Positions 19,221-58,124 are shown, counted from the stretch's first letter. The stretch is 64,000 nt of DNA from an uncultured Bacteroidaceae bacterium (GCA_905235565.1 CAJOLR010000001.1:1-64000); one strand, 5' to 3'. Numbers and translations: made by a program. Notes: generated by a model from the letters alone, not told the origin.

Positions 19221-22200
19221 TCAATCTTCTTTAGCAGGGAGATTCATATCAAGGAAATTGTTGCGTGATGCCTGAAGGCGCTCGTACTCCTCCTTGTCAC
19301 CCACAATAATCTTCTCGAACTCACGCAGACCTGTTCCGGCAGGAATCAGGTGACCGCAGATAACGTTCTCCTTCATACCCAGCAGACTGTCGCTCTTACC
19401 GTTGATGGCAGCCTCATTCAGAACCTTTGTGGTCTCCTGGAATGATGCGGCAGACATGAAGCTCTGGGTGGCCAAAGCAGCACGTGTAATACCCTGCAGG
19501 ATCTGAGTAGAAGTAGCAGGACGTGCCTCCTGTGCCTGAACAAGCTTGAGGTCCTTACGCTTGAGCATTGAGTTCTCGTCGCGCAGCTTGCGTGCTGTTA
19601 CCATCTGACCTGCAAACAGATTCTCACTGTCACCCGGATCAGTTACCACGAACTTACCCCAGATGCGGTCATTCTCCTCCATGAACTCCAGCTTGTCTAC
19701 AACCTGCTGTGCCAGGAAACGGGTATCGCCCGGCTCGTCAATCTCAACCTTACGCATCATCTGACGAACAATAATCTCAAAGTGTTTGTCATTGATCTTA
19801 ACACCCTGCAGACGATATACATCCTGAACCTCGTTCACAATATACTCCTGAACGGCAGTGGGACCCTTAATGGCAAGAATATCACTCGGAGTGATGGCAC
19901 CGTCGGACAGAGGAGTTCCGGCGCGTACATAGTCGCCCTCCTGAACCAGGATCTGCTTGGAGAGGGCTACCAGATACTTGCGCTCATCATCTGTACGTGA
20001 CACCACCGAGATCTCACGGTTACCACGCTTGATCTTACCCATGTGAACTGTACCGTCTATTTCAGATACTACAGCGGGATTGGACGGGTTACGTGCCTCG
20101 AACAGCTCTGTGACACGGGGCAGACCACCAGTGATATCACCAGCCTTACCCTGAACGCGCGGAATCTTGACAAGGATATCACCGGCTGCAAGTTCCTGAC
20201 CATCCTTTATGACCACGTGACCGCCTACCGGCAGGTTGTAAGAACGGAGCACCTCTCCCTTAGGTCCGATGATATCGGCCGACGGAATCTTGGTCCTGTC
20301 CTTGGTCTCTGTGATAATGATCTCCTCAAGGCCGGTAGCCTCATCGGATTCAATCTTATATGTTACGTTAGCGATAACGTCCGTAAGCTTAACCTTACCG
20401 GCAACCTCAGTGATGATAAGAGCGTTGAACGGATCCCATGTAGCTATCATATCACCCTTCTTTACAGTTGCACCGCTCTTGACAAAGAGTTTTGAACCGT
20501 AAGGCAGGTTGTGTGTAGAAAGGGCAATACCCGTGTTCTCATCAATGAACTTGGCTTCGCCCAGACGTCCTACTACGATCTGTACCTTGCTGCCGTCATC
20601 ATTCAAAGCATCTACTGTACGAAGCTCCTCAAACTCGATGCGGCAGTCATACTTGGCTGTCAGGCTTGAATTGGCTGCAATGTTAGATGCAGTACCACCG
20701 GCGTGGAATGTACGCAGTGTAAGCTGTGTACCAGGCTCACCGATTGACTGGGCTGCAATAACGCCCACAGCCTCACCCTTCTCAACCAGACGGCCTGTAG
20801 CCAGGTTACGTCCGTAGCACTTGGCGCAGACACCGCGCTTGCTCTCACAGGTGAGTACTGAACGTATCTCAACACTCTCAATAGGTGACTCATCTATCTT
20901 TTTGGCAATATCCTCTGTTATAATCTCACCGTCGGCAACCAGAAGCTCACCGGTAGTAGGATGAATAACATCATGTACAGATACACGACCCAGAATACGC
21001 TCATATAGAGAAGCAACTACCTCCTCATTCTCCTTAAGGGCGGTGCATACAAGGCCACGCAGAGTACCGCAGTCCTCCTCGGTGATGATCACATCATGTG
21101 ATACGTCAACAAGACGACGTGTCAGATAACCGGCATCGGCTGTCTTAAGAGCGGTATCGGCCAGACCCTTACGGGCACCGTGAGTAGAGATGAAGTACTC
21201 CAGCACTGACAGACCCTCCTTGAAGTTTGAAAGGATCGGGTTCTCAATGATCTGTGCACCCTCGGCACCGGCTTTCTGAGGCTTGGCCATCAGACCACGC
21301 ATACCGGAAAGCTGACGTATCTGCTCCTTGGATCCACGGGCACCGGAATCAAGCATCATGTATACTGAGTTGAATCCCTGGTCATCGTTGGAGATGGTCT
21401 TCATCAGAACCTTTGACAGGTCCTCATTGACGTGTGTCCATACATCGATAACCTTGTTGTAACGCTCGTTATCGGTGATAAGACCCATGTTATACTCGGC
21501 CATGATACCCTCGACCTCCTCATTACCCTTGGCAACAAGTTCCTGCTTCTCCTTAGGAATGATGATATCGTTCAGGTTGAATGACAGACCACCCTGAAAA
21601 GCCATCTTGTATCCCAGGTTCTTGATTCCGTCCAGGAACTCGCAGGCGCGGGCTACACCAACCTTCTTGATTACGTCCGATATCAGGTCACGCAGAGTCT
21701 TCTTTGATATGATGTAGTTGATGTAACCAACCTCATCGGGTATCAACTCATTGACGATTACACGACCTACTGACGTCTCTACGAGATGAGTGATAGGACT
21801 GCCCTGCTCGTCAACGTCATTTACCATAACCTTGACAACGGCATGGATATCAACCTTACCCTCATTATAGGCAATCAGGGCCTCCTCAGGTCCGTAGAAT
21901 GTCAGACCCTCACCCTTAACCTTCTCTATATAGTTGCCATCGGAATCCTTGACTGAACGGCGCAGTTTGGTGATGTAGTACAGACCAAGTACCATATCCT
22001 GTGCTGGCACTGTGATAGGAGCGCCGTTGGCAGGATTCAGGATATTATGAGACTGCAGCATAAGCATCTGTGCCTCCAGGATAGCCTCGTTGCTGAGCGG
22101 GAGGTGTACAGCCATCTGGTCACCGTCAAAGTCGGCGTTGAAAGCTGTACATGCCAGCGGGTGCAGCTGAATGGCCTTACCCTCAATCATCTTTGGCTGG

Positions 22201-23564
22201 AATGCCTGGATACCCAGACGGTGAAGTGTAGGAGCACGGTTCAAAAGAACGGGGTGACCCTTCATTACATATTCCAGGATGTCCCAAACGATAGGATCCT
22301 TGCGGTCAACAATCTTCTTGGCAGACTTTACGGTCTTAACTATACCGCGCTCAATGAGCTTACGGATGATGAAAGGCTTGTATAGCTCGGCAGCCATCAG
22401 TTTAGGTATACCGCACTCACCCATCTTAAGCTCAGGACCTACAACGATAACCGAACGGGCTGAATAGTCGACACGCTTACCCAGAAGGTTCTGACGGAAA
22501 CGACCCTGCTTACCCTTGAGTGAGTCAGAGAGTGACTTGAGCGGACGGTTGGCCTCGCTCTTTACGGCGCTGGCCTTGCGGCTGTTGTCGAACAGACTGT
22601 CGACAGCCTCCTGGAGCATACGTTTCTCGTTACGCAGGATAACCTCAGGAGCCTTTATCTCTATAAGTCTCTTAAGACGGTTGTTACGGATTATGACCCT
22701 ACGATACAGCTCGTTCAGATCGGATGTGGCAAAACGGCCGCCATCCAGAGGAACCAGAGGACGCAATTCAGGAGGAGTAACCGGAACAACCTTGAGGATC
22801 ATCCACTCGGGGCGGTTGATCTCACGTGAAGAACGGAATGACTCCACAATCTGAAGGCGCTTCAGGGCCTCAGTCTTGCGCTGCATTGTGGTCTTCTCAT
22901 CATTGGCCTTCTCACGGAGCTGATATGAGAGCTTGTCCAGATCCAGCTTGCACAGCAGGTCATAGATAGCCTCGGCTCCCATCTTGGCTACAAACTTATC
23001 GGGATCATTGTCATCCAGCATCTGATTCTCCTTAGGCAGCTTGTCAAGGATATCCAGATACTCATCCTCTGTCAGCAGGATAGGATCCTCGGGCTTGCGG
23101 GTGTCACCAATGGGATCTTCCCAAACGCCCTTGTTGATAACGATATAGCGCTCGTAGTAAATGATTGAATCAAGCAGCTTGGTAGGTATACCCAGAAGAT
23201 AACCGATCTTGTTAGGAAGGGAACGGAAATACCAGATATGAGCCACAGGAACAACCAGCTGGATGTGTCCCATACGCTCACGGCGTACTTTCTTCTCCGT
23301 AACTTCGACACCGCAACGCTCGCACACGATACCTTTGTAACGGATTCTCTTGTACTTTCCGCAATGGCACTCATAATCCTTTACAGGACCGAATATGCGC
23401 TCGCAGAACAGACCGTCACGCTCAGGCTTGTAAGTGCGGTAGTTGATGGTCTCAGGCTTTAGAACCTCACCGCTGGAGTTTGTCAGAATCTCCTCGGGCG
23501 AAGCAAGACTGATGGTTATCTTTGAGAAATTGTTCTTGATCTTTGTATCTTTTTTGAAAGGCAT
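19221..23564 (-). CDS. rpoC: RNA polymerase beta' subunit
   Basis: The 1447-residue beta' subunit. The N-terminal zinc region reads [20 protein letters not shown] (about residues 67-86). The catalytic Mg motif NADFDGDQ is near residue 475. A second zinc site shows [13 protein letters not shown]. Length and order fit Bacteroidota RpoC. It is the last gene of the tuf-secE-nusG-rplKAJL-rpoBC block and follows rpoB by 23 bp. It ends at a hairpin shared with dgt. Confidence 0.98.
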
Positions 23565-23587
23565 AGCTTCTTACTTTTTAATGGTGA

Positions 23588-26500
23588 TTACTCAAGATTG
23601 ATGCTAAGACCCAGACCACGCAACTCATGCAAGAGCACGTTGAGTGATTCGGGGATGCCTGGGGTAGGCATCGGATCACCTTTCACAATAGCCTCATAAG
23701 CCTTTGAACGGCCGGTCACATCATCAGACTTGATAGTCAGGATCTCCTGCAGCACATGGCTGGCACCGAATGCCTCAAGAGCCCAAACCTCCATCTCACC
23801 GAAACGCTGACCACCGAACTGGGCCTTACCGCCAAGCGGCTGCTGAGTGATAAGAGAGTACGGTCCGATAGAACGGGCATGCATCTTGTCCTCGACCATA
23901 TGACCCAGCTTAAGCATATAGGTAACACCTACTGTTGCGCACTGGTCAAACGGCTCGCCTGTACCTCCGTCATAAAGCTGTGTCTTACCGTAGCGCGGCA
24001 GACCAGCCTTGTCAGTCCACTCATTCAGGTCATCAATGGTAGCACCATCAAAGATAGGTGTAGCGAACTTGACACCAAGTTCACGTCCTGCATGACCAAG
24101 TACTGTCTCGAATATCTGACCGATGTTCATACGTGAAGGCACGCCCAGCGGGTTCAGGACGATATCAACGGGAGTACCATCGGCCAGGAACGGCATATCC
24201 TCCTGCTTAACCACGCGTGACACGATACCCTTGTTACCGTGACGACCGGCCATCTTGTCACCTACACCGATCTTACGCTTCTTGGCAACGTAAACCTTGG
24301 CCATCTGGATGATACCTGAAGGCAGTTCATCACCGATGGTAAGTGCAAATTTCTTACGCTTGTTCTCGGCGTCATACTCCTTGTACTTACGCAGGAAGTT
24401 TACGATCAGCTTTGATATCAGCTCATTGGAATGCTCATCGGATGTCCAGCTGTCAGACTGGACTGATGAATAGTCAATGGCCTCAAGTATCTGCTTGCTG
24501 AAACGCTGTCCCTTTGGAACAACCTCAGTGCCAAGCAGGTCAAATATGCCCTGTGATGTCTTGTTGGTGGTAAGAGTCATGAGTTTCTTGACAAGAATGC
24601 CCTTAAGCTCATTCACCTTATCCTCAAACTCTACGTCAATCATCGGCAGACGGGCCTTGTCGGCCTGACGGGAACTGCGGGTCTTGATGGCGCGTGCAAA
24701 TAGCTTCTTGTCTATTACAACACCCTTAAGTGAAGGTGAAGCCTTGAGTGAAGCATCCTTAACGTCACCAGCCTTGTCACCGAAAATGGCGCGCAGCAGT
24801 TTCTCTTCAGGTGAAGGATCGGACTCTCCCTTAGGAGTGATCTTACCGATCAGGATATCACCCGGCTGGATGTAAGCACCGATACGTACTATACCGTTCT
24901 CATCCAGGTCCTTGGTGGCATCATCACTGACGTTAGGTATATCATTGGTGAGTTCCTCCATGCCGCGTTTGGTCTCGCGGACTTCAAGGATGAACTCCTC
25001 GACATGTACAGAAGTAAGGATATCCTCGCGGACCACGCGCTCGTTCAGAACGATGGCATCCTCATAATTGTAACCCTTCCAAGGCATGTAAGCCACCAGC
25101 AGGTTCTTACCAAGTGCCAACTCACCGTTCTGGGTTGAGTAACCCTCGGTAAGGATGTCACCGGCCTTTACGCGCTGACCAACCTCGCAGATAGGACGCA
25201 GGTCAATGGTCATGTTCTGGTTGGTACGACGGAACTTAGGAAGCTTGTACTCCTTCTCGGCGGGTTCAAAGCTTACGAACTCCTCATCCTCGGTACGGTC
25301 ATACAATATCCGGATAACCGAAGCATCCACGTAGGTAACCACTCCTTCTCCCTCGGCGGTTATCTGAGTACGCGAATCCTCGGCAAGCTGTTTCTCAATA
25401 CCGGTTCCTACAATAGGAGCCTCGGTACGCATCAGAGGAACTGCCTGACGCATCATGTTAGATCCCATCAGGGCACGGTTGGCGTCATCGTGCTCCAGGA
25501 ACGGAATCAGAGCGGCAGCGATTGAAGCAATCTGCTGTGGCGATACGTCCATAAGCTCTACCTCATCTGGCGGAACAACCGGGAAGTCAGCATCGCGACG
25601 GGCCTTGACGCGGTTACGGATGAACTTGCCGTTCTCATCGTAAGGAGCATTACCCTGACCGATGATTACACCCTCCTCTTCTTCGGCTGTGAGATACTTG
25701 ACCTCATCGTTGTTAAGGTTCACATGGCAATCCTTGACCTTACGGTAAGGAGTCTCGATGAAGCCCAGGTCATTGATCTTTGCGTAGATGCAAAGAGAAG
25801 AGATAAGACCGATGTTTGGTCCTTCAGGAGTCTCGATCGGGCAGAGACGGCCATAATGTGTATAGTGTACGTCACGGACCTCGAATCCGGCACGCTCACG
25901 AGACAGACCGCCAGGTCCCAGAGCGGACATACGGCGCTTGTGAGTGATCTCGGCCAGAGGATTGGTCTGGTCCATGAACTGTGACAGTGCGTTGGTTCCA
26001 AAGAACGAGTTGATCACAGCCGATACTGTCTTGGCGTTGATGAGGTCGGTCGGAGTGAAGACCTCATTATCACGTACGTTCATGCGCTCGCGTATAGTGC
26101 GGGCCATACGGGCCAGACCTACAGCAAACTGATTGGACAGCTGCTCGCCGACGGTACGTACACGACGGTTAGACAGGTGGTCGATATCATCAACCACTGC
26201 GTGTGAGTTTACAAGTTCAATAAGATACTTGATGATCTCAATGATATCCTCCTTGGTAAGTACACCGATGCTCATGTCGGTGGTAAGACCAAGCTTGCGG
26301 TTAACGCGATAGCGTCCAACCTCACCCAGGTCATAGCGCTTCTCTGAGAAGAAAAGGTTGTTTATGACCTCACGTGCGCTTGAGTCATCAGCGGGATCGG
26401 CATTACGCAGCTGACGGTAGATATAGAGAACAGCCTCCTTCTCCGAGTTGCATGGATCCTTCTGCAGGGTGTTGAATATGATAGAATAGTCTGACTGACC

Positions 26501-27400
26501 CTCGGTCTCCTTATGCAGGAGGATAGTCTCCAGACCTGACTCCAGAATATCGTTGATGTTATCCTCGTTCAGTTCGGCCTCACGGTCAACCACCACTTCG
26601 TGACGGTCAATTGAAACAACCTCGCCGGTATCTGAATCCACAAAGTCCTCAATGCGTGTCCTAAGGACTCTTGCGGCAAGTTTGCGTCCTATGCACTTCT
26701 TCAGATTGGTCTTGTTGACCTTTACCTCCTCGGCCAGGTCAAATATATCCACTATGTCCTTATCGGTCTCAAATCCGATGGCACGGAGCAATGTTGTGAC
26801 AGGGAGTTTCTTCTTACGGTCGATGTAGGCGTACATCACGTTGTTGATGTCGGTAGCAAACTCGATCCATGAACCTTTGAACGGGATGATACGGGCCGAA
26901 TAGAGCTGTGTTCCGTTAGAGTGGACACTCTGTCCGAAGAACACGCCGGGTGAACGGTGCAGCTGTGAAACCACAACACGCTCGGCGCCGTTGATAACGA
27001 ATGTACCCTGTGCGGTCATGTACGGAATCGGGCCAAGGAAAACATCCTGTATCACTGTATCAAAATCCTCGTGATCGGGATCGGTGCAATACAGTTTCAG
27101 CTTGGCCTTCAAAGGTACGCTATAGGTCAGGCCATGCTCCAGACACTCTTCGATAGTGTAGCGGGGCGGGTCGATGTAATAGTCCAGAAATTCCAGAACG
27201 AAATTGTTCCTGGTGTCTGCTATGGGGAAGTTCTCTGAGAATACTTTGTAGAGTCCTTCGTTCTTGCGCTTTTCAGGTGGTGTGTCCAACTGAAGGAAAT
27301 CCTTGAATGATTTGAGCTGAACCTCAAGGAAATCAGGACACGGCATCGGATTCCTTACGGAAGCGAAATTAATTCTCTGATTATCTGTGTTTGAAGACAT
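23588..27400 (-). CDS. rpoB: RNA polymerase beta subunit
   Basis: The 1270-residue beta subunit. Landmarks are the rifampicin region ([20 protein letters not shown], then [20 protein letters not shown]), the conserved [24 protein letters not shown], and the C-terminal [20 protein letters not shown]. The rifampicin cluster has the wild-type-like residues (no common resistance change is obvious by eye). It starts 130 bp after rplL, and a large terminator-like hairpin lies in that gap. Confidence 0.98.
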
Positions 27401-30444: not shown

Positions 30445-30462
30445 AGTTCTTATTTCTACTTG

Positions 30463-30535
30463 CACGGGTGGAAAGGCTCGAACTCTCGACACTCGGTTTT
30501 GGAGACCGATGCTCTACCAACTGAGCTACACCCGT
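30463..30535 (-). tRNA. trnW: tRNA-Trp (CCA anticodon)
   Basis: The 73-base cloverleaf starts ACGGGTG and ends CACCCGT, a perfect 7-bp acceptor stem. The D stem is GCTC/GAGC. The anticodon loop CTCCAAA gives CCA. The T arm contains TTCGAGC. The 3' CCA is not encoded. It lies between tuf and secE, four bases after a stable hairpin. Confidence 0.95.
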
Positions 30536-30539
30536 AGGT

Positions 30540-30569
30540 AATGTCAGCACCCCGAAGGGAGCTGACATT
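30540..30569 (-). other. UUCG-capped hairpin between tuf and tRNA-Trp
   Basis: AATGTCAGC pairs with GCTGACATT (9 bp), then one mismatch and CCC/GGG closed by a TTCG loop, an exceptionally stable tetraloop. No T run follows, and the tRNA-Trp 5' end is four bases downstream, so this is more likely a 3' end protector of tuf mRNA after RNase P processing than a terminator. Confidence 0.6.
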
Positions 30570-30583
30570 TATTATACAATCAA

Positions 30584-31780
30584 TTAGTCGATGATTGCGG
30601 TGATCTGACCTGAACCAACGGTACGGCCGCCCTCACGGATAGCGAAACGCAGACCAACGTTGATAGCTACAGGATAGATCAGGGTAACGGTGATCTCAAC
30701 GTTATCACCAGGCATTACCATCTCAGTTCCCTCGGGGAGAGTGATCTCACCGGTGCAGTCCATTGTACGGATGTAGAACTGAGGACGATACTTGTTACGG
30801 AATGAGGTGTGACGACCACCCTCCTTCTGTGTCAGTACATAGATAGAAGCCTTGAAAGTGGTGTGAGGCTTGATCTGACCCGGATGGCAAAGAACCATAC
30901 CGCGCTTGATCTCAGTCTTCTCAATACCACGGAGCAGCAGACCTACGTTATCACCAGCCTCGCCCTGCTCAAGGAGCTTACGGAACATCTCGACACCGGT
31001 AACGGTTGTCTCTTTCTCCTCACCAAGACCAAGGATCTCAACCTTGTCACCTACCTTAACAACGCCAGTCTCGATACGACCGGTAGCAACTGTACCACGG
31101 CCAGTGATTGAGAATACGTCCTCAACAGGCATCAGGAACGGCTGATCAACAGCACGCGGAGGCAGAGGAATCCACTCGTCAACAGCATCCATCAGCTCCA
31201 TAACCTTATCCTCCCACTCCTTAACGCCGTTCAAGGCACCAAGGGCAGAACCACGGATGATAGGAGTGTTGTCGCCATCGAACTCATAAGCATCCAGAAG
31301 CTCACGCATCTCCATCTCAACGAGGTCGATCATCTCTGAGTCAACATCGGGAGAATCGCACTTGTTCAGGAATACAACCAGCTTAGGAACGTTCACCTGA
31401 CGGGCAAGCAGGATGTGCTCACGGGTCTGAGGCATCGGACCATCAGTAGCAGCAACCACAACGATAGCACCATCCATCTGGGCAGCACCGGTAACCATGT
31501 TCTTTACATAGTCAGCGTGACCCGGGCAGTCAACGTGAGCGTAGTGACGTTTCTCAGTCTCATACTCAACGTGAGCGGTGTTGATGGTTATACCACGCTC
31601 CTTCTCCTCAGGTGCGTTATCAATCTGATCAAATGACTTGATCTTGTCAGCATTACCTGATACTCTCTCAGCCAATACCTTGGTGATAGCAGCGGTCAGG
31701 GTAGTCTTACCGTGGTCAACGTGACCGATAGTACCAATGTTTACGTGCGGTTTAGTGCGCACAAATGTCTCTTTTGCCAT
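30584..31780 (-). CDS. tuf: Elongation factor Tu
   Basis: A 398-residue GTPase that delivers aminoacyl-tRNA to the ribosome. G motifs are GHVDHGKT (residues 19-26), DCPGHADYV and NKCD. Domain 2/3 signatures such as [17 protein letters not shown] are present. It is embedded in a tRNA operon: four tRNAs upstream, tRNA-Trp downstream. It is the only tuf copy in this window. Confidence 0.98.
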
Positions 31781-31823
31781 AGTTTTAAGCTATTTTATTG
31801 ATTATAAACTTGATGTCAACTAC

Positions 31824-31850
31824 AAAAAGGCTCCCGCCAAGGCGGTCTCC
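31824..31850 (-). terminator. Weak terminator-like hairpin in the tuf leader
   Basis: On the transcript a CCGC/GCGG stem with flanking partial GG/CC pairing is followed by CCTTTTTG. It lies between tRNA-Thr(GGT) and tuf. The stem has internal mismatches, so this is a tentative attenuator that would separate tRNA and tuf output. Confidence 0.3.
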
Positions 31851-31873
31851 TCCAATCCTCATTTAAAAATTTG

Positions 31874-31946
<73 letters not shown>

Positions 31947-31957
31947 GACAAATCTGG

Positions 31958-32030
31958 AGCGGGAAACGGGACTCAAACCCGCGACCCTCAGCTTGGAAGG
32001 CTAATGCTCTATCAACTGAGCTATTCCCGC
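31958..32030 (-). tRNA. trnG: tRNA-Gly (TCC anticodon)
   Basis: A 73-base cloverleaf with acceptor stem GCGGGAA/TTCCCGC, anticodon loop CTTCCAA (TCC) and T arm GGTTTGAGTCC. It lies 11 bases before tRNA-Thr(GGT). The 112-base gap between it and tRNA-Tyr holds no ORF but contains a short CCGG-GAAA-CCGG hairpin and an AT-rich CCTTAT/ATAAGG stem. Confidence 0.95.
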
Positions 32031-32142
32031 AACTTTCTTTGTCACGATTGTTACCCCCAGACCTGCCTTATAATATTAATAAGGTGGTTTCATGGAAGAA
32101 CCGCAGGCTCCGGTTTCCCGGCATCGTCATGTCCTGCCTTTG

Positions 32143-32225
32143 TGGGTGAAGATGGATTCGAACCACCGAAGTCGAAAGACAGCAGATTTACAGTCTGCCC
32201 CATTTGGCCACTCTGGAATTCACCC
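32143..32225 (-). tRNA. trnY: tRNA-Tyr (GTA anticodon)
   Basis: An 83-base class II tRNA with acceptor stem GGGTGAA/TTCACCC, anticodon loop CTGTAAA (GTA), a long variable arm (TGTCTTTCGACTTCG region) and T arm GGTTCGAATCC. The length and long variable arm are those expected for bacterial tRNA-Tyr. Confidence 0.95.
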
Positions 32226-32231
32226 CCTTGG

Positions 32232-32303
32232 AGCCGCTAGTCGGAATCGAACCAACAACCTACGCATTACAAGTGCGTTGCTCTACCATTGAGCCATAGC
32301 GGC
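32232..32303 (-). tRNA. trnT: tRNA-Thr (TGT anticodon)
   Basis: A 72-base cloverleaf with acceptor stem GCCGCTA/TAGCGGC, anticodon loop CTTGTAA (TGT) and T arm GGTTCGATTCC. It is the first gene of the tRNA-tuf operon, six bases before tRNA-Tyr. Confidence 0.95.
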
Positions 32304-49009: not shown

Positions 49010-50008
49010 ATGAAGTTTTTGACAAATGAGAAACTGGTCATCTCTGGCGCAGCCGGTATGATCGGATCAAACATGGCTCAGACAGCCATCATGATGGGAC
49101 TTTCATCAAACATCTGCCTTTATGATGTTTATCTGCCCGGTCTGGAGGGTGTGGTTGAGGAGCTTCGCCACTGCGCATTCCCCGGTGTCAACATCACCTT
49201 TACCGATAAGGTTGAGGAGGCTTTCAAGGATGCCAAGTATATGGTTTCATCAGGTGGTGCTCCCCGTAAGGCCGGCATGACCCGTGAGGATCTGCTGGTT
49301 GGCAACGCCAAGATAGCCGAGCAGCTGGGTAAGGACATCAAGACCTACTGCCCAGACCTCAAGCACTGCGTTATCATCTTTAACCCGGCCGATATCACCG
49401 GTCTGGTAACTCTGGTTTACTCTGGTCTGAAACCTTCACAGATTACAACTCTTGCAGCTCTTGACTCAACACGTCTGCAGAGCGCCCTGGCCAAGCACTT
49501 TGGTGTAGCTCAGGATAAGGTTACCACCGCACGCACTTACGGCGGTCACGGTGAGCAGATGGCAGTGTTCGCATCAACCGCCAAGGTTGACGGCAAGCCT
49601 CTGACCGATATCATCGGTACTCCCGCTCTTACAAACGAGCAGTGGGCACAGATGAAGCAGGATGTTATCAAGGGCGGTGCCAAGATCATCGAGCTGCGCG
49701 GACGTTCATCATTCCAGAGCCCATCTTTCGTATCAATCGAGATGATAGGTGCTGCCATGGGCGGCGAGAAGTTTGAGTGGCCCGCAGGCTGCTACGTGAA
49801 CAACTCACAGTTCCAGAACGTGATGATGGCTATGCCTTCAACCATTGATGCCACCGGCGTACACTACACCGACGTTAAGGGTACCGCTACCGAGATGGCT
49901 GACATTGAGGCCAGCTACAAGCATCTGCAGGCTATGCGTGATGAAGTGATTTCACTTGGCGTACTTCCCGCAGTTAGCGAGTGGAAGAAATACAACCCCA
50001 ATCTCTGA
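49010..50008 (+). CDS. mdh: Malate dehydrogenase
   Basis: A 332-residue NAD-dependent LDH/MDH superfamily enzyme interconverting malate and oxaloacetate; in anaerobic Bacteroidota it serves the reductive branch to fumarate and succinate. The dinucleotide motif GAAGMIGSNMAQ is at residues 13-24. APRKAGMTREDLL carries the mobile-loop Arg residues, and RTYGGHGEQMAVF holds the catalytic His near residue 184. It stands alone between its own -7 box and a clear terminator. Confidence 0.92.
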   Translation: MKFLTNEKLVISGAAGMIGSNMAQTAIMMGLSSNICLYDVYLPGLEGVVEELRHCAFPGVNITFTDKVEEAFKDAKYMVSSGGAPRKAGMTREDLLVGNAKIAEQLGKDIKTYCPDLKHCVIIFNPADITGLVTLVYSGLKPSQITTLAALDSTRLQSALAKHFGVAQDKVTTARTYGGHGEQMAVFASTAKVDGKPLTDIIGTPALTNEQWAQMKQDVIKGGAKIIELRGRSSFQSPSFVSIEMIGAAMGGEKFEWPAGCYVNNSQFQNVMMAMPSTIDATGVHYTDVKGTATEMADIEASYKHLQAMRDEVISLGVLPAVSEWKKYNPNL

Positions 50009-50030
50009 TAAGGGACTCTGTATGGATTTA

Positions 50031-50062
50031 GGCGCACGGATTTCTTCCGTGCGTCTTTTTTT
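50031..50062 (+). terminator. Intrinsic terminator of mdh
   Basis: GGCGCACGGA pairs with TCCGTGCGTC (10 bp, one G-T) around a 5-base loop, followed by seven T residues. It lies 22 bp after the mdh stop. Confidence 0.88.
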
Positions 50063-50107
50063 GTTTAAAAAAGCTGCCTGAAAATCGGAAATAAGGCGCA
50101 CTTTAAT

Positions 50108-50115
50108 TAGATTTG
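50108..50115 (+). promoter_or_regulatory. -7 promoter box for the HTCS pair
   Basis: TAGATTTG matches TAnnTTTG and ends 13 bp before ATG 50129 (34 bp before the alternative ATG 50150). No TTTG is at the -33 spacing. No similar box is seen in the 37-bp gap before the second HTCS gene, which may rely on this promoter. Confidence 0.45.
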
Positions 50116-50128
50116 TAGTTATTATCGG

Positions 50129-53100
50129 ATGTCAGATACGCATATGTCTATGAGAAAAGCCATAATAACTGCGTTAGCTGTCCTCTACGCTTCACTGCTT
50201 GGAGCAGTGAACGGTTTCTCCATATCCCAAAGCACCATAGGCAACGGATTGGAGAGCCAGTCGCTCAATGTGCTGGCCAAGGACCGCCATGGGCGTCTGT
50301 GGGTGGGTTCCGACGTCGGTATATCAGTGATATCAAACGGTATAGTGACCAACATCAGGGATATAGCATCCGAGGGGGGGCTGGTGATGCTGGGCAACGT
50401 AAAGAACATTGCCTGCACCGAGACCGTACTGCTGGCATGTGAGGACCGGATTCTGCACTATGACCACAAGAAAGGATATGCCACTACGCTAAGGTACAAT
50501 GACAGGATACTGCACACCAATGATTTTCTGTTAGAAGGCGATATCGTAACATTCTATGATGCCGATATGCACTCTCTGTTTACATATGACATGAACAACA
50601 GCGAGTGCAGTCTGGTAGCCGGACTAAGCACACGTGAGGATTTAAACTTTGTCAGGATTCTGCGTTCAGAGTCTGATTCAGCAATTATCTATCTGGCCGA
50701 TGATATACTGGGACTGTACCGTTATGACCGCAACAACGGATCACTTGAACACATATCCGGCACTGACCGTCCCATAGTAGCCAGAGCCACTGCCATAGAC
50801 AAAAGCAACGTCATATGGCTGTCAATACCCGGTAACGGTCTTAAAGGATATTATATCAACAGCCGTTACGAAATGGTGGCTGAATATAATACAAGTAACT
50901 GCGACCTGCTGTCCGATGATATATCCCTCATAAAAACGCTTTCAGACGGCAACCTGCTTACTGTACATTCAGACATAGGGATATGCCTTATAGAGCGTAA
51001 CAGTATAGGCCGCAATGCGAAAGTCACTGCCATAAACAACCTCAGGAACGTGACATCCGCCCTGGTCAACCCCGATTATCGGGAATCACTTTACGCCACT
51101 TCGGGATTCGGACTGATATCAATAAAGAGATCATTCATCGGACAGATACGCCACTTGCATGAGAATGAGGAAGGCATAATCAGCTATGACAATTACATAT
51201 CCGCATTTGAAGAGCCGGAAGGAACGGTAATTCTGGGAACTACGGGCAACGGACTGTGCAGGTTAGACCCTCAGACACAGCAGACAACAGTATTCAAAGG
51301 CACCGAAGACCTTCTGATAATATCGATGAGCCGGTTTGACGATGATAACATCCTGATGGCCGATGCAGACAAAGGCCTGATGCTGTTCAACCGCAAGCTG
51401 GGCCGGATAACCGCCGGCAAACCCAATATAGACCTACCCTCACCATCGTTCGCCAATCTCAGAAATATAAGCATGACCGTTGCCTATAACGGAGATATCT
51501 TTATATTCAATGCCAATGCCCACCATTACGTATTGCGTAAGAGTACCGGCAGACTGGAGGAGATATCGGTATTGTCCGAAGACAGGGAACCTGTCAAACA
51601 GGTTGAGAATGTCTGCTCCACCCAATATGCAGTGTACGTAACCTACAGAGGTGCCATCATAGAAATTAATTTCAGCACACTTGAAAGCACACTCATTTAC
51701 AAGAACAAGGATAAGGTCATACACAACATTACATCGTTGGACGCCAACTCTCAGGGTGAGCTGTTCTTTACGGAGCCTGAGGGACTTCACCGTTATGACC
51801 CGCGTTCCAACTTTGACGAGATTCTGGTGGAGACATGGGGGAACGGACGCTTCATGAACGTGGCAGTCGATTCAAATGACCGCATCTGGTTTACCACTAC
51901 AGATGAGTATATACAGATGTATGACCTAAGCAAGAAAGAATTGCTGTCATACTCCCTTGAGGACGGCGTGCCAAGCTCCCGTTTTATGAATTATTTTGCC
52001 TTAAGTACCAGATCCGGATATATCATGATTCCCAATGCAGACGGAATCGTAACCATAAACACCAACGGGGCGCTCATGTCTGACACTCCACCCTCCAAGG
52101 TTACGTGTATATCGGCCTATACAGAAAAGAGGGAGATTGCGGCAGAGGATATAATGAAATCCCTTGAAACTCCGTTCATGCTGCCATCCAAATTCAGGGA
52201 GCTCCATCTGGAATTCTCGTACAACAGTTTCAATCCCACATACCCGCACCTGTTCATCTATAACATCTATAGGGGCAATATCCTGATTAAGTCAGTCTAT
52301 ACCACAAGCACCGTCATCACACTACCCAAACTGGAAAACGGTACATACAGGGTTGAGATACGGCAGGCTTTCCGCAAAGGACTTAGTGAACCGGAGACAA
52401 TTGTCATGTTCAAGATACCCAAACATTTCCTGAGCACTGTACCGGGAGTGCTGGTTGCCCTTTTACTGATGCTGTTGTTTGGTTACACGATAGCCAAATT
52501 AACCAGTACTATGGAGAAAAACCGAATGGAGAAAGCAATGGCTGCCCAGGACATCAAGAACCGTGAGGATAAGATTGCATTCCTCTCCAACATAGCCCAC
52601 GAACTGCGTACACCCCTCTCGCTCATATACAATCCCGTAAAGGACTTCCTGCAGGAGAAATCCGTAGACGGCATTGACTATGAGCGTATGGAACGTATAT
52701 TCAACCAGGTAAACAAGATGACCGTTATGGTCAACATGATTCTGGACAGCAGCCGGGCCGATGTCAACAAGGCGGACATACTGATAGAAGAGGTTAACCT
52801 GAACGAATGGCTGAATTTCCTGCTGGAGGATTACCGCATTGACTGTTACGGAAAGGGATTCAGTCTGAAATTCATAATGGACAACACCATTGGTAATGTC
52901 TCAATAGATAAGAGAATAATTGAGACAGGACTATCCAATATGGTGAATAACGCCATCAAATACAGTACCAGCGGCACAACCATAACGGTTATCACATCCC
53001 GATCCGGAAACATGATACGCGTTACCGTCAAGGATCAGGGACGTGGTTTTACCTGTGATCCTGAGGATCTGTTCAAGCGTTACTATAGGGATAATGTTGA

Positions 53101-54106
53101 TACAAACATTCCCGGATACGGACTTGGACTTCCGTATGCAAGGCTTCAGTTGAGCCTTATTGGCGGAAAGATGTCGGCCATGAACAATGAAGACGGGATA
53201 GGATCGTCATTCTATATGGAATTCCCCGCCGAGATAGGAAAGAACGGCAGCCCGTCTGCTACAGTTGAGAAGAGTTCAAACAGCCAGGCAACACAAACAG
53301 ATATTGTTGAGGATACCCAGGAGGGTATGGCCCAGGATTTTGACACCAACAACATGACAATCATGTTTGTATGTGCCGACAAGTCAGAGACAGACTTATT
53401 CACAGATGAGTTTGACGGCATGTTCCAGAGTATCATTACGGCCGAAGAAGGCTCCGATGCCTTGAGTAAACTGAAACGTAAGAAGACAGATCTGGTGATA
53501 AGTGACATTGAAATGCCCAAGATGGATGGTTTTGAGTTGTGCCGTAACATAAAAGGCACACTGGAGATAAGCCATATCCCCATTATACTCCTTACCTCCA
53601 GGACTGACCAAAGGAACAAGAACCAGGGGTATAAGATGGGAGCGGATGCTTTCATACCCAAACCTTATGACTTCAAGCAGTTATATGCTTTGATCAGAGG
53701 TCAGTTAGGCGGACGGTTTGAAATAAAACGCCAGTACAATTTCGGGTTCTTCAGCAAAATGAATATCGACCAGACGTTCAGCGTTACTGATGAGGAGTTC
53801 ATCAGCTCCCTGAACTCTCTCATTGACCAGTTCATATCTGACCCGTCACTGAATGAAGACTACATCCTGAAGCAGACCGGTATATCACGTTCCGTAATGA
53901 ATAGGAAGATGGAAGGACTTCTTGGTACGGATTTGGCCGGATACCTGACAAGAATCCGTATCAGCATCGTCAAGGATAAGCTTACAAACACTGAAGAAGA
54001 TCCTGAATCCATAGCCAAAGAGACTGGTTTTATCAGTGTTGAAGCCATGAACAAGGCTTTCAAACGTGAAACAGGCAAGTCTATCAATGCTGTACGTGAG
54101 CAATAA
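50129..54106 (+). CDS. Hybrid two-component system regulator (HTCS), copy 1, with altered receiver
   Basis: A 1325-residue one-protein signalling system spanning the inner membrane. Order: signal peptide (MRKAIITALAVLYASLLGA; ATG 50150 also possible), periplasmic beta-propeller repeats (such as DRHGRLWVGSDVGISVI), a Y_Y_Y domain, one membrane helix (about 769-790), HisKA with His824 (AHELRTPLSLIYNPVKD), HATPase (NNAIKYS, GYGLGLPYARL), receiver and AraC-type HTH. The receiver keeps Asp1126 (ISDIEMPKMDGFE) and the Lys in PKP, but the Mg-binding acidic pair is Cys-Ala (VCADKS) where copy 2 has Asp-Asp. The last HTH is also weak (EAMNKAFKRETGKSINAV). Confidence 0.9.
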   Translation: MSDTHMSMRKAIITALAVLYASLLGAVNGFSISQSTIGNGLESQSLNVLAKDRHGRLWVGSDVGISVISNGIVTNIRDIASEGGLVMLGNVKNIACTETVLLACEDRILHYDHKKGYATTLRYNDRILHTNDFLLEGDIVTFYDADMHSLFTYDMNNSECSLVAGLSTREDLNFVRILRSESDSAIIYLADDILGLYRYDRNNGSLEHISGTDRPIVARATAIDKSNVIWLSIPGNGLKGYYINSRYEMVAEYNTSNCDLLSDDISLIKTLSDGNLLTVHSDIGICLIERNSIGRNAKVTAINNLRNVTSALVNPDYRESLYATSGFGLISIKRSFIGQIRHLHENEEGIISYDNYISAFEEPEGTVILGTTGNGLCRLDPQTQQTTVFKGTEDLLIISMSRFDDDNILMADADKGLMLFNRKLGRITAGKPNIDLPSPSFANLRNISMTVAYNGDIFIFNANAHHYVLRKSTGRLEEISVLSEDREPVKQVENVCSTQYAVYVTYRGAIIEINFSTLESTLIYKNKDKVIHNITSLDANSQGELFFTEPEGLHRYDPRSNFDEILVETWGNGRFMNVAVDSNDRIWFTTTDEYIQMYDLSKKELLSYSLEDGVPSSRFMNYFALSTRSGYIMIPNADGIVTINTNGALMSDTPPSKVTCISAYTEKREIAAEDIMKSLETPFMLPSKFRELHLEFSYNSFNPTYPHLFIYNIYRGNILIKSVYTTSTVITLPKLENGTYRVEIRQAFRKGLSEPETIVMFKIPKHFLSTVPGVLVALLLMLLFGYTIAKLTSTMEKNRMEKAMAAQDIKNREDKIAFLSNIAHELRTPLSLIYNPVKDFLQEKSVDGIDYERMERIFNQVNKMTVMVNMILDSSRADVNKADILIEEVNLNEWLNFLLEDYRIDCYGKGFSLKFIMDNTIGNVSIDKRIIETGLSNMVNNAIKYSTSGTTITVITSRSGNMIRVTVKDQGRGFTCDPEDLFKRYYRDNVDTNIPGYGLGLPYARLQLSLIGGKMSAMNNEDGIGSSFYMEFPAEIGKNGSPSATVEKSSNSQATQTDIVEDTQEGMAQDFDTNNMTIMFVCADKSETDLFTDEFDGMFQSIITAEEGSDALSKLKRKKTDLVISDIEMPKMDGFELCRNIKGTLEISHIPIILLTSRTDQRNKNQGYKMGADAFIPKPYDFKQLYALIRGQLGGRFEIKRQYNFGFFSKMNIDQTFSVTDEEFISSLNSLIDQFISDPSLNEDYILKQTGISRSVMNRKMEGLLGTDLAGYLTRIRISIVKDKLTNTEEDPESIAKETGFISVEAMNKAFKRETGKSINAVREQ

Positions 54107-54143
54107 GAGTTTTTTTACTACATTAGCCGAACATACCTAACAT

Positions 54144-57100
54144 ATGAGACATATGAACAAAAGGTTACTGACATTACTGTTATCAGTTATTTCTTGTCTG
54201 AATATCAGCGCCCACTACACACTGCAGGCGCAGATAGACACCGAAAAGGGACTTAGTTGCAATGCCGTCAAAGCGTTTGCCAGAGATATGTACGGACGCC
54301 TTTGGGTTGGAACTATAAACGGAGCCAACCTGATATCAAACGGAACCATACGCCAATACCAATATTTTACAGTAGGCGGAAATGATATCGTTACCGGAGA
54401 TGTTCAGGCCATAGCATGCTCCAGGCGGGCTCTAATTGCCACAAACAACCATATCATTGACTTTGATCCCGACAATGACTCCACCCATCTGGTTTCTTTT
54501 GAGGGGAAAACCATCCGAACCGATTATATCATGATGAGAGGAGACTCAGCCTTCTTCTTCAACGCACCTCTCAGTGCGGTCATGATGTATGACCTGAACA
54601 ACTATACCACAAGCATTGTCGCCCAGTTCCCTACAGAACGCCAGTTCCATTTTACCAAGATACTCCAGATATCCAATGAGCCCAACCAGCTGATGCTGGT
54701 AGAGGATGAACGTGGTTTTTATCATCTTGATATTAACACCGGCATGCTTACCCACATGGAACAGCTCGGCGTCAATATAACCACCAGGGCGACTTTCATT
54801 GACTCAAAGGATATACTGTGGGTTGCGTACAGAGACAAGGGCATAACCGGTTTCTATGTAAAATCCGGCTTTGACAAGATATCCCATTTTGACACATCCA
54901 ATTCCGAGATTACGGACAACAATATTCTATGTCTTAGCGAAATGCCCGATGGAAATCTGTTTATCTGCACCACAGGCAATGGTACACTGGTCCTTAACCG
55001 CAAGACTGGAAAGGCCGAAAAAGAGATGTTCGGGGAGATGTCACATCTGCAAGTAATGTGTTCATTCGTAAACGATAATGAGAATGAGGTATTGTTGGGA
55101 ACCCTTCATCGTGGAATAATCTCCATGAAACGGTCATTTTTCCATAACATGGGTAACAACAGGAAAGAACACGGAACAGACATATCATGTATACCTATAT
55201 CCGGTTTTCAGGAGAATGACGGTACCATCTGGTTCGGCTTCGGAGGGTTAGGCCTGAGCCGTTTTGACCAGAAAACAGAGAATCATACCTTCTTCAAGTC
55301 TACGGATGAGATGAGAATCTCCGGAGTTTGCAGTTTTGATAAAGACAATCTCCTTATTACAGACCGTATACGGGGACTGTTCCTTTTCAACAAGAGGAGA
55401 GAAACCATAACACCTGCAAGTTTTCTGTCAGACGCGGGCATCAATATCTCATCGTCCAGACTGGCCAATCTCAAGACCATAACAACCCCCGACGGGGATA
55501 TCATGCTTTTTAACTGCAACGGCCGTCATCTCATTTATAGACGGGACATAAAAGAGGCCAGAGAGATAGTTCTGCAGATGAACGGCGAAGAGAACCGGGG
55601 GCTTGTAGAAGATGTACAGGTACAACCGTCACATGCTACTGTGGTATGCAACGGCTGTATCTATGAGATTGATTACAGGACCCTGCTGGCACGTCTCATC
55701 TTCCAGAATCCGGAAGACGGACACAGCGCTGTCTCAAAAGTAGCCGAAGATTCACGCGGTATCATTTGGGCCAGTTCTCCCGATGAACTGATAAGCTATG
55801 ATCCGCGCACCAACAAGCTATCCAGGATTATGGGAAAGATGGATTATGGTGTATTCCTGTCCATGAGCATTGACCATAACGATCATCTTTGGATTACTAC
55901 AGACAAGTCATTCATGATAATGTATGACACAAACAACAAGGAATTTAAAGAGCCATTCACCTATTACGGCAGAGACTGCGGAACGATGCTTAATTTCATA
56001 CCCGGATTCTCATTGGTATCGAATGACGGTTTTGTATATTTTCCAAACTCGTCAGGTCTTCTGGTGATAGATCCGAATGATGTGAACATACGCTATAACA
56101 GCACATCACAGCCTCTCTACCTGACAAAGATTGCACTTGACGGCAATATATACAGCAACACAGGAGGGCATAACAAGGCATTGAACATACCTAACAAGTT
56201 CTCATTGCTGACTGTAAACGTGGCCATTGACCAGTTTGACCCATCCAGGCCTGTTTTACTCAAATACACCCTGCTCAAGAAGGGACGTCCGTTCCCCATA
56301 ATGGAATCTGTAACATCAAATACCGAATTTACCATTCCAAAATCCTCTCACGGAACATTCTCCCTAACCGTAAGTCAGCGGACTATCCAGGGATGGAGCG
56401 AACCTCAGGAGATACTCTCCTTTAAAGTAGCCAGGCCATTCATAATGACGGTCCCGGCCTATCTGCTGATCATTGCCATAATCATCTCCTTAAGCGTGAC
56501 AATATCAAAGATTAGCATCAGCCTGAAGCAGATTGGCATTGACAGGGCCATGAATGCCCAGGAAAACAAGCATAAGGATGATAAGATATCCCTGATGTCA
56601 AATCTGGCCCATGAGTTGCGCACCCCGCTTTCACTCATCTATAACCCGGTAAAGGACATGCTTGAGGAGAAGGCTGTGAAAGGTATCGATTATGACCGTC
56701 TGGAGCGAATATTCAATCAGGTTCAGAAAATGACGGATATGGTCAACACCATTCTGGATAAAGGTACCAATGACGTAAGCAGGAGTGATATTGTAATTGA
56801 GAGCATTGACCTTAATAAATGGTTGGGCAAGATAATAGAAGATTTCAAGATAGACTGCTACGCCAAGGGACTGAAAACCCGTTTTGAGCCGATGGACGGT
56901 TTGGGTAAGGTTAATCTGGATGTCAAGATGATGGAAGTGGCTGTGAACAATATCATGAGCAATGCCATCAAATACAGCGACACCGGTACGATAACCATAT
57001 CTACGGGGCATGAAAGGAACAGGATTTGGATTAGTTTCCATGATGAAGGAAGAGGATTCACTTGTAAGCCTGAGGAACTGTTCAAACGATACTACAGGGA

Positions 57101-58124
57101 GAATGAGAATATCCCAGGTTTCGGACTTGGACTATCAAATGCCAAACTGATGGTTGAAACCCTTAACGGGTCCATTACAGCCAAAAAGAATAACGGTCCG
57201 GGTTCTACATTCACCATAGAGATTCCGGATGACCTGGAAGAAAAGAACCACAGCAAAGACATCATCCCGCAGCCTGCTCCGCAAATAAATGAGGTTGCCA
57301 ATTTTGACGAGATCGATAATCAGACACAGACCGACGAGGTAAACTTCAATACCAAGAGCATGACACTGCTTATTGTCGACGATCAGGAAGATATACTCCA
57401 GTTCATAAAGGATGAGTACTCTCCCCTGTTCAAGACCATATATACAGCCCACGACGGGAAGGAAGCCCTGGATCTGATACATCAGCGAATGCCCAATGTG
57501 GTGGTCAGCGATATAATGATGCCTCGCATGAACGGATTTGAGCTCTGTAAAACCATAAAGACTGACCTTGAGTTAAGTAGCATTCCTGTAATACTGCTGA
57601 CATCCCGAAGCGACCCAAAGAATCAGGATATGGGATATAAGATGGGTGCTGACTCATTCCTTCCCAAGCCTTTTGACTCCAAACTTCTATACAAGATCAT
57701 AAGGAGTCAGCTAAAGAACAGGTTTGAGATCAAACGGCAGTACGCCACATCATTCTTTACCGCTATTTCCGAAGATCAGACATTCAGTGCAGCCGATGAG
57801 CAGTTCGTACTTAAACTCAACCGCTTTATCCGTGAGAACCTTAGCAATACCATGCTCGGCGTCGATATGATAGTAGACCATATGAACGTATCACGCACCA
57901 CACTGTTCAACAAGATGAACAATCTGGTTGGTGCATCGACAAACAAGTATATACGCCGCATCAGGATAGAAGTAGCCAAGGAGATGCTCTCCAAGACAAA
58001 CAAGTCTGTAGGCACTATAGCCGAGGAGACAGGATTCTCTGAGAGCCAGTATTTCAGCACGGTATTCAAGCAGGAGACCGGCATGACTCCGTCACAGTTC
58101 AAGGATTCACTGCGCAAGGGCTGA
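54144..58124 (+). CDS. Hybrid two-component system regulator (HTCS), copy 2
   Basis: A 1326-residue paralogue of the preceding gene with the same order: signal peptide (MNKRLLTLLLSVISCLNISA), propeller repeats (DMYGRLWVGTINGANLIS), Y_Y_Y, membrane helix, HisKA with His823 (AHELRTPLSLIYNPVKD), HATPase (GFGLGLSNAKL), receiver with intact Asp1079-Asp1080 (IVDDQED) and Asp1123 (SDIMMPRMNGFELC), and a canonical AraC HTH ending YFSTVFKQETGMTPSQFK. HTCS normally sense glycan breakdown products and switch on polysaccharide utilisation genes. No SusC/SusD or glycosidase gene is near, so the ligand and targets are unknown. It ends 2 bp from the convergent dprA. Confidence 0.93.
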   Translation: MRHMNKRLLTLLLSVISCLNISAHYTLQAQIDTEKGLSCNAVKAFARDMYGRLWVGTINGANLISNGTIRQYQYFTVGGNDIVTGDVQAIACSRRALIATNNHIIDFDPDNDSTHLVSFEGKTIRTDYIMMRGDSAFFFNAPLSAVMMYDLNNYTTSIVAQFPTERQFHFTKILQISNEPNQLMLVEDERGFYHLDINTGMLTHMEQLGVNITTRATFIDSKDILWVAYRDKGITGFYVKSGFDKISHFDTSNSEITDNNILCLSEMPDGNLFICTTGNGTLVLNRKTGKAEKEMFGEMSHLQVMCSFVNDNENEVLLGTLHRGIISMKRSFFHNMGNNRKEHGTDISCIPISGFQENDGTIWFGFGGLGLSRFDQKTENHTFFKSTDEMRISGVCSFDKDNLLITDRIRGLFLFNKRRETITPASFLSDAGINISSSRLANLKTITTPDGDIMLFNCNGRHLIYRRDIKEAREIVLQMNGEENRGLVEDVQVQPSHATVVCNGCIYEIDYRTLLARLIFQNPEDGHSAVSKVAEDSRGIIWASSPDELISYDPRTNKLSRIMGKMDYGVFLSMSIDHNDHLWITTDKSFMIMYDTNNKEFKEPFTYYGRDCGTMLNFIPGFSLVSNDGFVYFPNSSGLLVIDPNDVNIRYNSTSQPLYLTKIALDGNIYSNTGGHNKALNIPNKFSLLTVNVAIDQFDPSRPVLLKYTLLKKGRPFPIMESVTSNTEFTIPKSSHGTFSLTVSQRTIQGWSEPQEILSFKVARPFIMTVPAYLLIIAIIISLSVTISKISISLKQIGIDRAMNAQENKHKDDKISLMSNLAHELRTPLSLIYNPVKDMLEEKAVKGIDYDRLERIFNQVQKMTDMVNTILDKGTNDVSRSDIVIESIDLNKWLGKIIEDFKIDCYAKGLKTRFEPMDGLGKVNLDVKMMEVAVNNIMSNAIKYSDTGTITISTGHERNRIWISFHDEGRGFTCKPEELFKRYYRENENIPGFGLGLSNAKLMVETLNGSITAKKNNGPGSTFTIEIPDDLEEKNHSKDIIPQPAPQINEVANFDEIDNQTQTDEVNFNTKSMTLLIVDDQEDILQFIKDEYSPLFKTIYTAHDGKEALDLIHQRMPNVVVSDIMMPRMNGFELCKTIKTDLELSSIPVILLTSRSDPKNQDMGYKMGADSFLPKPFDSKLLYKIIRSQLKNRFEIKRQYATSFFTAISEDQTFSAADEQFVLKLNRFIRENLSNTMLGVDMIVDHMNVSRTTLFNKMNNLVGASTNKYIRRIRIEVAKEMLSKTNKSVGTIAEETGFSESQYFSTVFKQETGMTPSQFKDSLRKG

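Follow-up and report, generated by a model that had tools for sequence, protein, structure and literature searches.

Reciprocal conservation in a tandem HTCS pair suggests a division of kinase and DNA-binding roles between two chains

HTCSs are usually viewed as self-contained one-chain switches with one sensor and one output. A tandem pair of HTCS genes in an uncultured rumen Bacteroidaceae bacterium, one of which lacks the acidic pair of its receiver, raises the question of whether each chain is such a switch or whether the two share the task. The pair lies in a 64,000-nt window (GCA_905235565.1 CAJOLR010000001.1:1-64000; positions refer to this whole stretch), part of a 2.2-Mb draft genome that is 91% complete. 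A first-pass annotation had described two ORFs of 1,325 and 1,326 aa with a shared domain order, and translation and domain profiles confirmed both coordinates and architecture (Table 1). Copy 1 and copy 2, separated by 37 bases, each contain Reg_prop repeats, HisKA, HATPase_c, Response_reg, and HTH_18, uniting in one chain the propeller, kinase, receiver, and AraC-type HTH domains by which an HTCS is recognized.

Table 1. Features of the tandem HTCS locus
Feature	Position	Strand	Evidence
Terminator-like hairpin between mdh and copy 1	50030..50056	+	sequence
Bacteroidota-type -7 element (TAnnTTTG)	50107..50119	+	kept in most relatives
Copy 1: propeller sensor, TM, intact HisKA/HATPase, pseudo-receiver, drifting HTH	50129..54106	+	ORF, domain profiles
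Copy 1 kinase core (HisKA aa 816-878, HATPase aa 928-1035)	52574..53233	+	domain profiles, alignment
Copy 1 pseudo-receiver (aa 1076-1192), receiver fold predicted kept	53354..53704	+	alignment, AlphaFold, PDB matches
Cys1082-Ala1083 replacing acidic pair, copy 1	53372..53377	+	translation, alignment
SHIP loop, copy 1 (consensus receiver/DNA-binding-domain autoinhibition motif)	53570..53581	+	alignment; motif from PMC11253607
Copy 1 HTH_18 domain, divergent	53870..54103	+	domain profile, alignment
Copy 2: complete HTCS, receiver and HTH nearly invariant genus-wide	54144..58124	+	ORF, domain profiles, alignment
Copy 2 kinase core (HisKA aa 816-872, HATPase aa 930-1029)	56589..57230	+	domain profiles
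Asp1079-Asp1080 acidic pair, copy 2	57378..57383	+	translation, alignment
SSIP loop, copy 2; non-consensus (His to Ser), invariant among copy 2 orthologues	57576..57587	+	alignment
Copy 2 HTH_18 domain	57876..58103	+	domain profile

The pair is flanked by mdh upstream and by a convergent dprA (at 58127) downstream. As the first-pass annotation had stated, no SusC/D or glycosidase gene adjoins it, a neighborhood that is usual but not strict for HTCSs; the four SusD-type matches of the draft genome all lie elsewhere. SusD was considered as a target by co-occurrence and rejected: the genes on contigs 7, 29, and 31 occur in 35, 13, and 4 of 37 genomes of the genus, and none of these three tracks the pair. 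A search of relatives for a conserved operator between mdh and copy 1 showed the terminator and a -7 element as the sole shared features. This element, TTAGATTTGTAGT (also given as TTAGnTTTGTAGT), is conserved in most relatives and carries TAnnTTTG, the -7 consensus of Bacteroidota. It is the probable promoter of copy 1 and copy 2, which together resemble an operon of two genes that has a promoter to itself and includes no cotranscribed target. The start of copy 1 is probably the ATG at 50150, which gives about 1,318 aa: the proteins of relatives start opposite query residue 8 and align at that point. Elsewhere in the window, at 19221-27400 and 30462-32303, lie two giant minus-strand ORFs of 1,447 and 1,270 aa plus a tRNA cluster (Trp, Thr, Gly, Tyr, Thr), all ordinary; by size and setting, the ORFs are probably rpoC and rpoB.

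The receiver of copy 1 reads IMFV-C1082-A1083-D1084-K at this site and that of copy 2 LLIV-D1079-D1080-Q, so that the reported substitution of the acidic pair is correct, as is the presence of the acceptor Asp (D1126 and D1123) and the Lys (K1178 and K1175) in both copies. The second HTH of copy 1 also departs from the canonical pattern as described (GFISVEAMNKAFKRETGKSINAV versus GFSESQYFSTVFKQETGMTPSQF in copy 2). Among the 37 genomes of the genus, all of them drafts, 17 carry both genes between mdh and dprA. An intact Asp-Asp in copy 1 orthologues had been set beforehand as the observation that would speak for a strain-specific mutation; it was found in 0 of 17, and the loss is genus-wide. 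The position instead reads CA, SA, SS, SD, GT, GG, or CM, with the second acidic residue retained by G026 alone. The acceptor Asp has become Glu or Asn in four orthologues (G026, G009, G008, and G031), and the Lys is Arg in G031. An earlier proviso was that the neighboring ADK residues might supply the acid. D1084 is kept in 15 of 17 (missing in G008 and G031), and the acceptor itself is gone in the four genomes above; judged from sequence alone, a residual metal site may still exist. Copy 1 thus lacks the full set of a phosphorylatable HTCS receiver (acidic pair, Asp, Thr/Ser, and Lys) and has the makeup of a pseudo-receiver, a receiver fold without key active-site residues, whereas the receiver of copy 2 is intact in all 17 orthologues.

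The receiver fold of copy 1 is predicted to be retained, given PDB receiver matches and one AlphaFold model with a pLDDT of 74; the other copy 1 models reached 51-55, so AlphaFold was trusted for the receiver fold alone. The AlphaFold model of the copy 2 REC-HTH region (pLDDT 54) was set aside; copy 2 aligns along the full length of the solved HTCS receiver-HTH fragment 12aw. Variability in the copy 1 receiver peaks in the beta1-alpha1 region and alpha2 (1.6-1.7 bits), and the alpha3-beta4 loop, beta4, beta5, and the alpha5 extension are conserved (0.1-0.3 bits). Since alpha1 is the usual kinase-docking helix of receivers, copy 1 seems to have lost both the chemistry and the kinase docking of its receiver while keeping contact surfaces.

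Conservation computed over 16 syntenic copy 1-copy 2 pairs revealed that the two proteins are constrained in opposite halves. In copy 1, identity is 98% in the DHp (70 of 73 positions invariant), 84% in the CA, 63% in the REC, and 57% in the HTH; in copy 2, the corresponding values are 89%, 77%, 97%, and 94%. Invariant columns number 155/211 in copy 1 versus 88/206 in copy 2 for the kinase half (p 2e-10) and 45/224 versus 184/226 for REC plus HTH (p 8e-41), the columns being phylogenetically dependent in both comparisons. Kinase motifs are complete in each full-length copy 1 orthologue, and those of copy 2 (H, N, G1, and G2) are likewise preserved wherever the pair occurs (the G1/G2 stretch is partly masked in G010). 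As a control, we used an ordinary HTCS orthologue group (contig 52 in this genome) from 11 of the same genomes and expressed module divergence relative to each protein's own propeller. The control showed no skew of either sort (DHp 0.42, REC 0.41, and HTH 0.27), and a general laxity of HTCS receivers was dismissed on this ground; copy 1 gave 0.04, 0.91, and 1.12, and copy 2 gave 0.31, 0.09, and 0.16.

Substitution rates followed the same pattern. The dN/dS of the copy 1 DHp is 0-0.016, and that of the REC is 0.08-0.22 in copy 1 versus 0.003-0.020 in copy 2, roughly ten times or more higher but far below 1, as expected of selection that is relaxed, not neutral. With dN/dS at about 0.1, the copy 1 HTH and receiver are under purifying selection and therefore have some role; together with the open frames, this also dismisses a pseudogene. 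Judged by these rates, the reciprocal skew is specialization rather than decay. Between the copies, identity is 70% in the DHp, 48% in the CA, and 27% in the propeller, so the near identity earlier ascribed to the kinase motifs stands for the DHp and fails overall. Origin of the pair by duplication is supported, but the event is old, because overall identity is only about 35%. Gene conversion was dismissed, as the copies group separately in kinase and receiver trees.

The copies also differ in the S/CHIP-DK motif, a conserved contact that silences the HTH of HTCSs according to Gao and co-workers (PMC11253607). Copy 1 and the control have SHIP and copy 2 has SSIP throughout, and its HTH may therefore be less self-silenced, a lead rather than a test; the motif is not strictly defining, because about 90% of HTCSs have the consensus (PMC11253607).

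Across the genus, the two genes behave as a unit. No case of copy 1 without copy 2 or a third-protein partner was seen in the genomes examined; single copy-2-like HTCSs, the converse case, are restricted to genomes outside the pair clade. In six genomes (G007, G017, G018, G020, G022, and G023), mdh and dprA are directly adjacent and the locus is absent; G018 nests within the pair clade of the flanking-gene tree as a loss of the whole locus. By copy 1, the nearest named relatives are the MAGs RUG450, RUG14751, and RUG11961, the label standing for rumen uncultured genome. The best matches beyond the genus are ordinary full-length HTCSs at 28-30% identity, some of which adjoin a SusC/SusD pair (in two of the genomes checked, L158 and L159) or a SusC-type receptor (in a third, L165). 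Two genomes, G034 (L202) and G030 (L204), keep dprA and have a rearranged mdh side, with unrelated genes in place of the locus. The mdh gene (window 49010-50008) shows 94-100% identity across most of the genus and 89% in the outgroup genomes G035 and G003. At the same place, identity is only 62-65% in G014 and G017, and the G031 gene matches about as poorly; xenologue replacement is probable in these three.

Several genomes carry harder forms of the split at this locus, reached by independent domain losses along the same line. In G004, G033, and G015, a membrane protein of 286-325 aa consists of the histidine kinase only, without propeller, receiver, or HTH, and is partnered by a 622-624-aa protein with intact REC and HTH whose His is replaced by Asn or Tyr. 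In G014, copy 1 ends before the second HTH motif, copy 2 retains its DHp without an ATPase, and Asn has replaced the His of an additional, third regulator at the locus. The pair is joined by a third protein of this same type in G013, with a DHp and no ATPase, and in G031, with a His-less DHp and a degenerate ATPase. G024 has an apparent propeller and kinase with a broken frame next to a regulator fragment. The third regulator, propeller-less and with a DHp remnant, receiver, and HTH, lies upstream of copy 1 at L135 (5068-6549), L136 (1391-3163), and L137 (12704-14419). The kinase tree, which is partly unsure owing to long branches, places the HK-only proteins as the sister group of copy 1 (support 95/90), and a single clade of the receiver tree (90/93) unites the third proteins with those of 622-624 aa. 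The flanking-gene tree (SH-aLRT support only) places the single-HTCS genomes G003, G035, and G032 outside, with three-gene loci branching early and the pair clade nested. The simplest history would lead from one HTCS to three genes, followed by loss of either the third gene, leaving the pair, or copy 2 and the sensor domains, leaving the HK-only form.

Regions of G028 and G001 (L142-L146 and L150) contain further tandem HTCS groups, some members having a live kinase without an HTH and others degenerate kinase motifs with receiver and HTH intact; the split apparently recurs in these places. Both members of a tandem pair in another genus (L168) retain the His, acidic residues, Asp, and Lys by eye, so tandem position alone is insufficient for a split. 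Possibly, fused HTCSs have been dismantled here repeatedly into obligate multichain complexes of a kinase chain, a regulator chain, and at times a third chain, in which several propellers serve one DNA-binding output. The HK-only and His-less forms, the mdh-dprA pair, and the G001/G028 groups would then be stages of one process; we hold this broader view tentatively.

How, then, might the pair work? With a sound kinase in one chain and a sound receiver and HTH in the other, in full pairs and hard forms alike, phosphotransfer from copy 1 to copy 2 is the most economical reading. It is likely that duplication of an HTCS gave rise to a system of two proteins in which copy 1 is a sensor kinase that acts in trans on the copy 2 receiver, probably as a DHp heterodimer. 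The HTCS locus would have been duplicated early in the genus and the copies would have divided the work. The copy 1 propeller would sense, its DHp/ATPase would autophosphorylate, and the phosphoryl group would pass to Asp1123 of copy 2, whose HTH would be the output that binds target promoters; the copy 1 receiver would no longer be an efficient phosphate acceptor, and its HTH would be freed from DNA-sequence constraint. Most likely, the chains would meet through their well-matched DHp helices. Such heterodimerization, already proposed in the first-pass annotation, is plausible: it is favored by the 70% DHp similarity and by the regulators that keep a DHp without an ATPase (G014 and G013). From the comparative patterns, we infer trans-phosphorylation, heterodimerization, and a two-signal input, in which two different propellers would feed one DNA-binding output. 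Since the kinase motifs of copy 2 are intact in the pairs, copy 1 may not be the only donor and may instead supply an additional input.

Those same motifs (H, N, G1, and G2) mean that copy 2 may act alone, with copy 1 merely a modulator that heterodimerizes with a self-sufficient partner and shifts the balance of its kinase and phosphatase activities up or down, much as RetS and LadS act on GacS. The hyperconserved copy 1 DHp would suit a docking or phosphatase role, and the conserved surfaces of its receiver (alpha3-beta4 loop, beta4, beta5, and extended alpha5) could dock on copy 2. However, a pure modulator would not need the ATP-binding motifs that are invariant in copy 1, and a copy-1-type kinase is the only local donor in G014, where copy 2 has no ATPase, and in G004, G033, and G015, where the regulators are His-less; we therefore consider modulation alone unlikely. 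Also weighing against a copy 1-to-copy 2 relay are the purifying selection on the HTH and receiver of copy 1 and, outside the copy 1 lineage, further partial HTCSs of the genus that lack an assigned partner.

Two further accounts are much less probable still. A decaying duplicate that is losing its receiver and HTH and has no function dependent on copy 2 would fit the drift of these domains at propeller pace, the missing second HTH motif of G014, and the frequent loss of the whole locus, but hardly a DHp that is 98% identical genus-wide with dN/dS near 0, frames that are open in almost all genomes, and the constant company of a regulator partner. Nor do we give much credence to the first-pass proposal of a phosphorylation-independent partner or decoy, which would titrate copy 2 or its DNA sites. 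The pseudo-receiver and the retained SHIP-type REC-DBD contact motif agree with it, but competition for DNA sites is unlikely because the HTH is the least conserved domain of copy 1 and its kinase the most conserved. That the kinase half is the most constrained in the locus, and that an HK-only lineage stands beside a His-less regulator in three genomes, points to copy 1 as an active kinase donor rather than a dummy.

If phosphotransfer from copy 1 to copy 2 is the true reading, the pair is an example of evolution taking fused sensors apart again. A conserved, half-swapped pair would break the one-chain rule, offer a new explanation for dead-kinase regulators such as BT4236, and provide a natural fused-to-split series for studying how kinase specificity is regained after tethering, which relaxes kinase-receiver specificity in HTCSs as discussed by Gao and co-workers (PMC11253607), has been lost. 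It also cautions that deletion of a single HTCS gene may take away just half a regulator. The first-pass view of an undescribed regulatory arrangement agrees with our search of open-licence papers, which returned no description of it and no relevant report of HTCS heterodimers or of split or heteromeric HTCSs.

The copies share with the Bacteroides HTCSs BT4663 and BT4124 (PMC11253607) the single-chain order of periplasmic propeller, TM, HisKA, HATPase, receiver, and AraC-type HTH; here, however, one chain has the active receiver/HTH and the other the kinase under strongest constraint, no PUL is adjacent, and copy 2 has SSIP in place of the S/CHIP His found in over 90% of HTCSs. BT4236, a natural HTCS with Gln for the phospho-His, has a broken kinase like the 622-624-aa proteins and a CSIP loop comparable to the SSIP of copy 2; its authors suggest a phosphorylation-independent mechanism (PMC11253607), whereas in our locus the neighboring gene encodes a partner kinase. 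BT4111/BT4124 and BT4178/BT4182 (PMC3878776) likewise place two related HTCSs at one locus, with a shared PUL and a proposed joint regulon, but in the part of that account considered here each pair is proposed to share one DNA motif and domain loss goes unmentioned, unlike the loss of opposite halves in our pair. Pseudo-receivers (PMC12632262) similarly have a receiver fold without metal-binding acids, and a partnership with a true receiver is proposed for CmrT with CmrR; HTCS cases go unmentioned there, with neither "Bacteroid" nor "AraC" in the text. RetS, GacS, and LadS of Pseudomonas (PMC4866733) are also hybrid kinases that act on each other, but they belong to an unrelated family in which GacS is modulated by the other kinases and GacA is a regulator on its own, whereas the partner here is a fused regulator of the same operon. 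Set beside such heterodimeric histidine kinases, the copies offer the indirect sign that they are more alike in the DHp (70%) than in the CA (48%) or the propeller (27%). The gene architecture of G004, G033, and G015 approaches that of a classical two-component system, with separate HK and RR and phosphotransfer in trans, and the pair has probably reverted to a relay between two proteins, one keeping the kinase and the other the DNA-binding switch.
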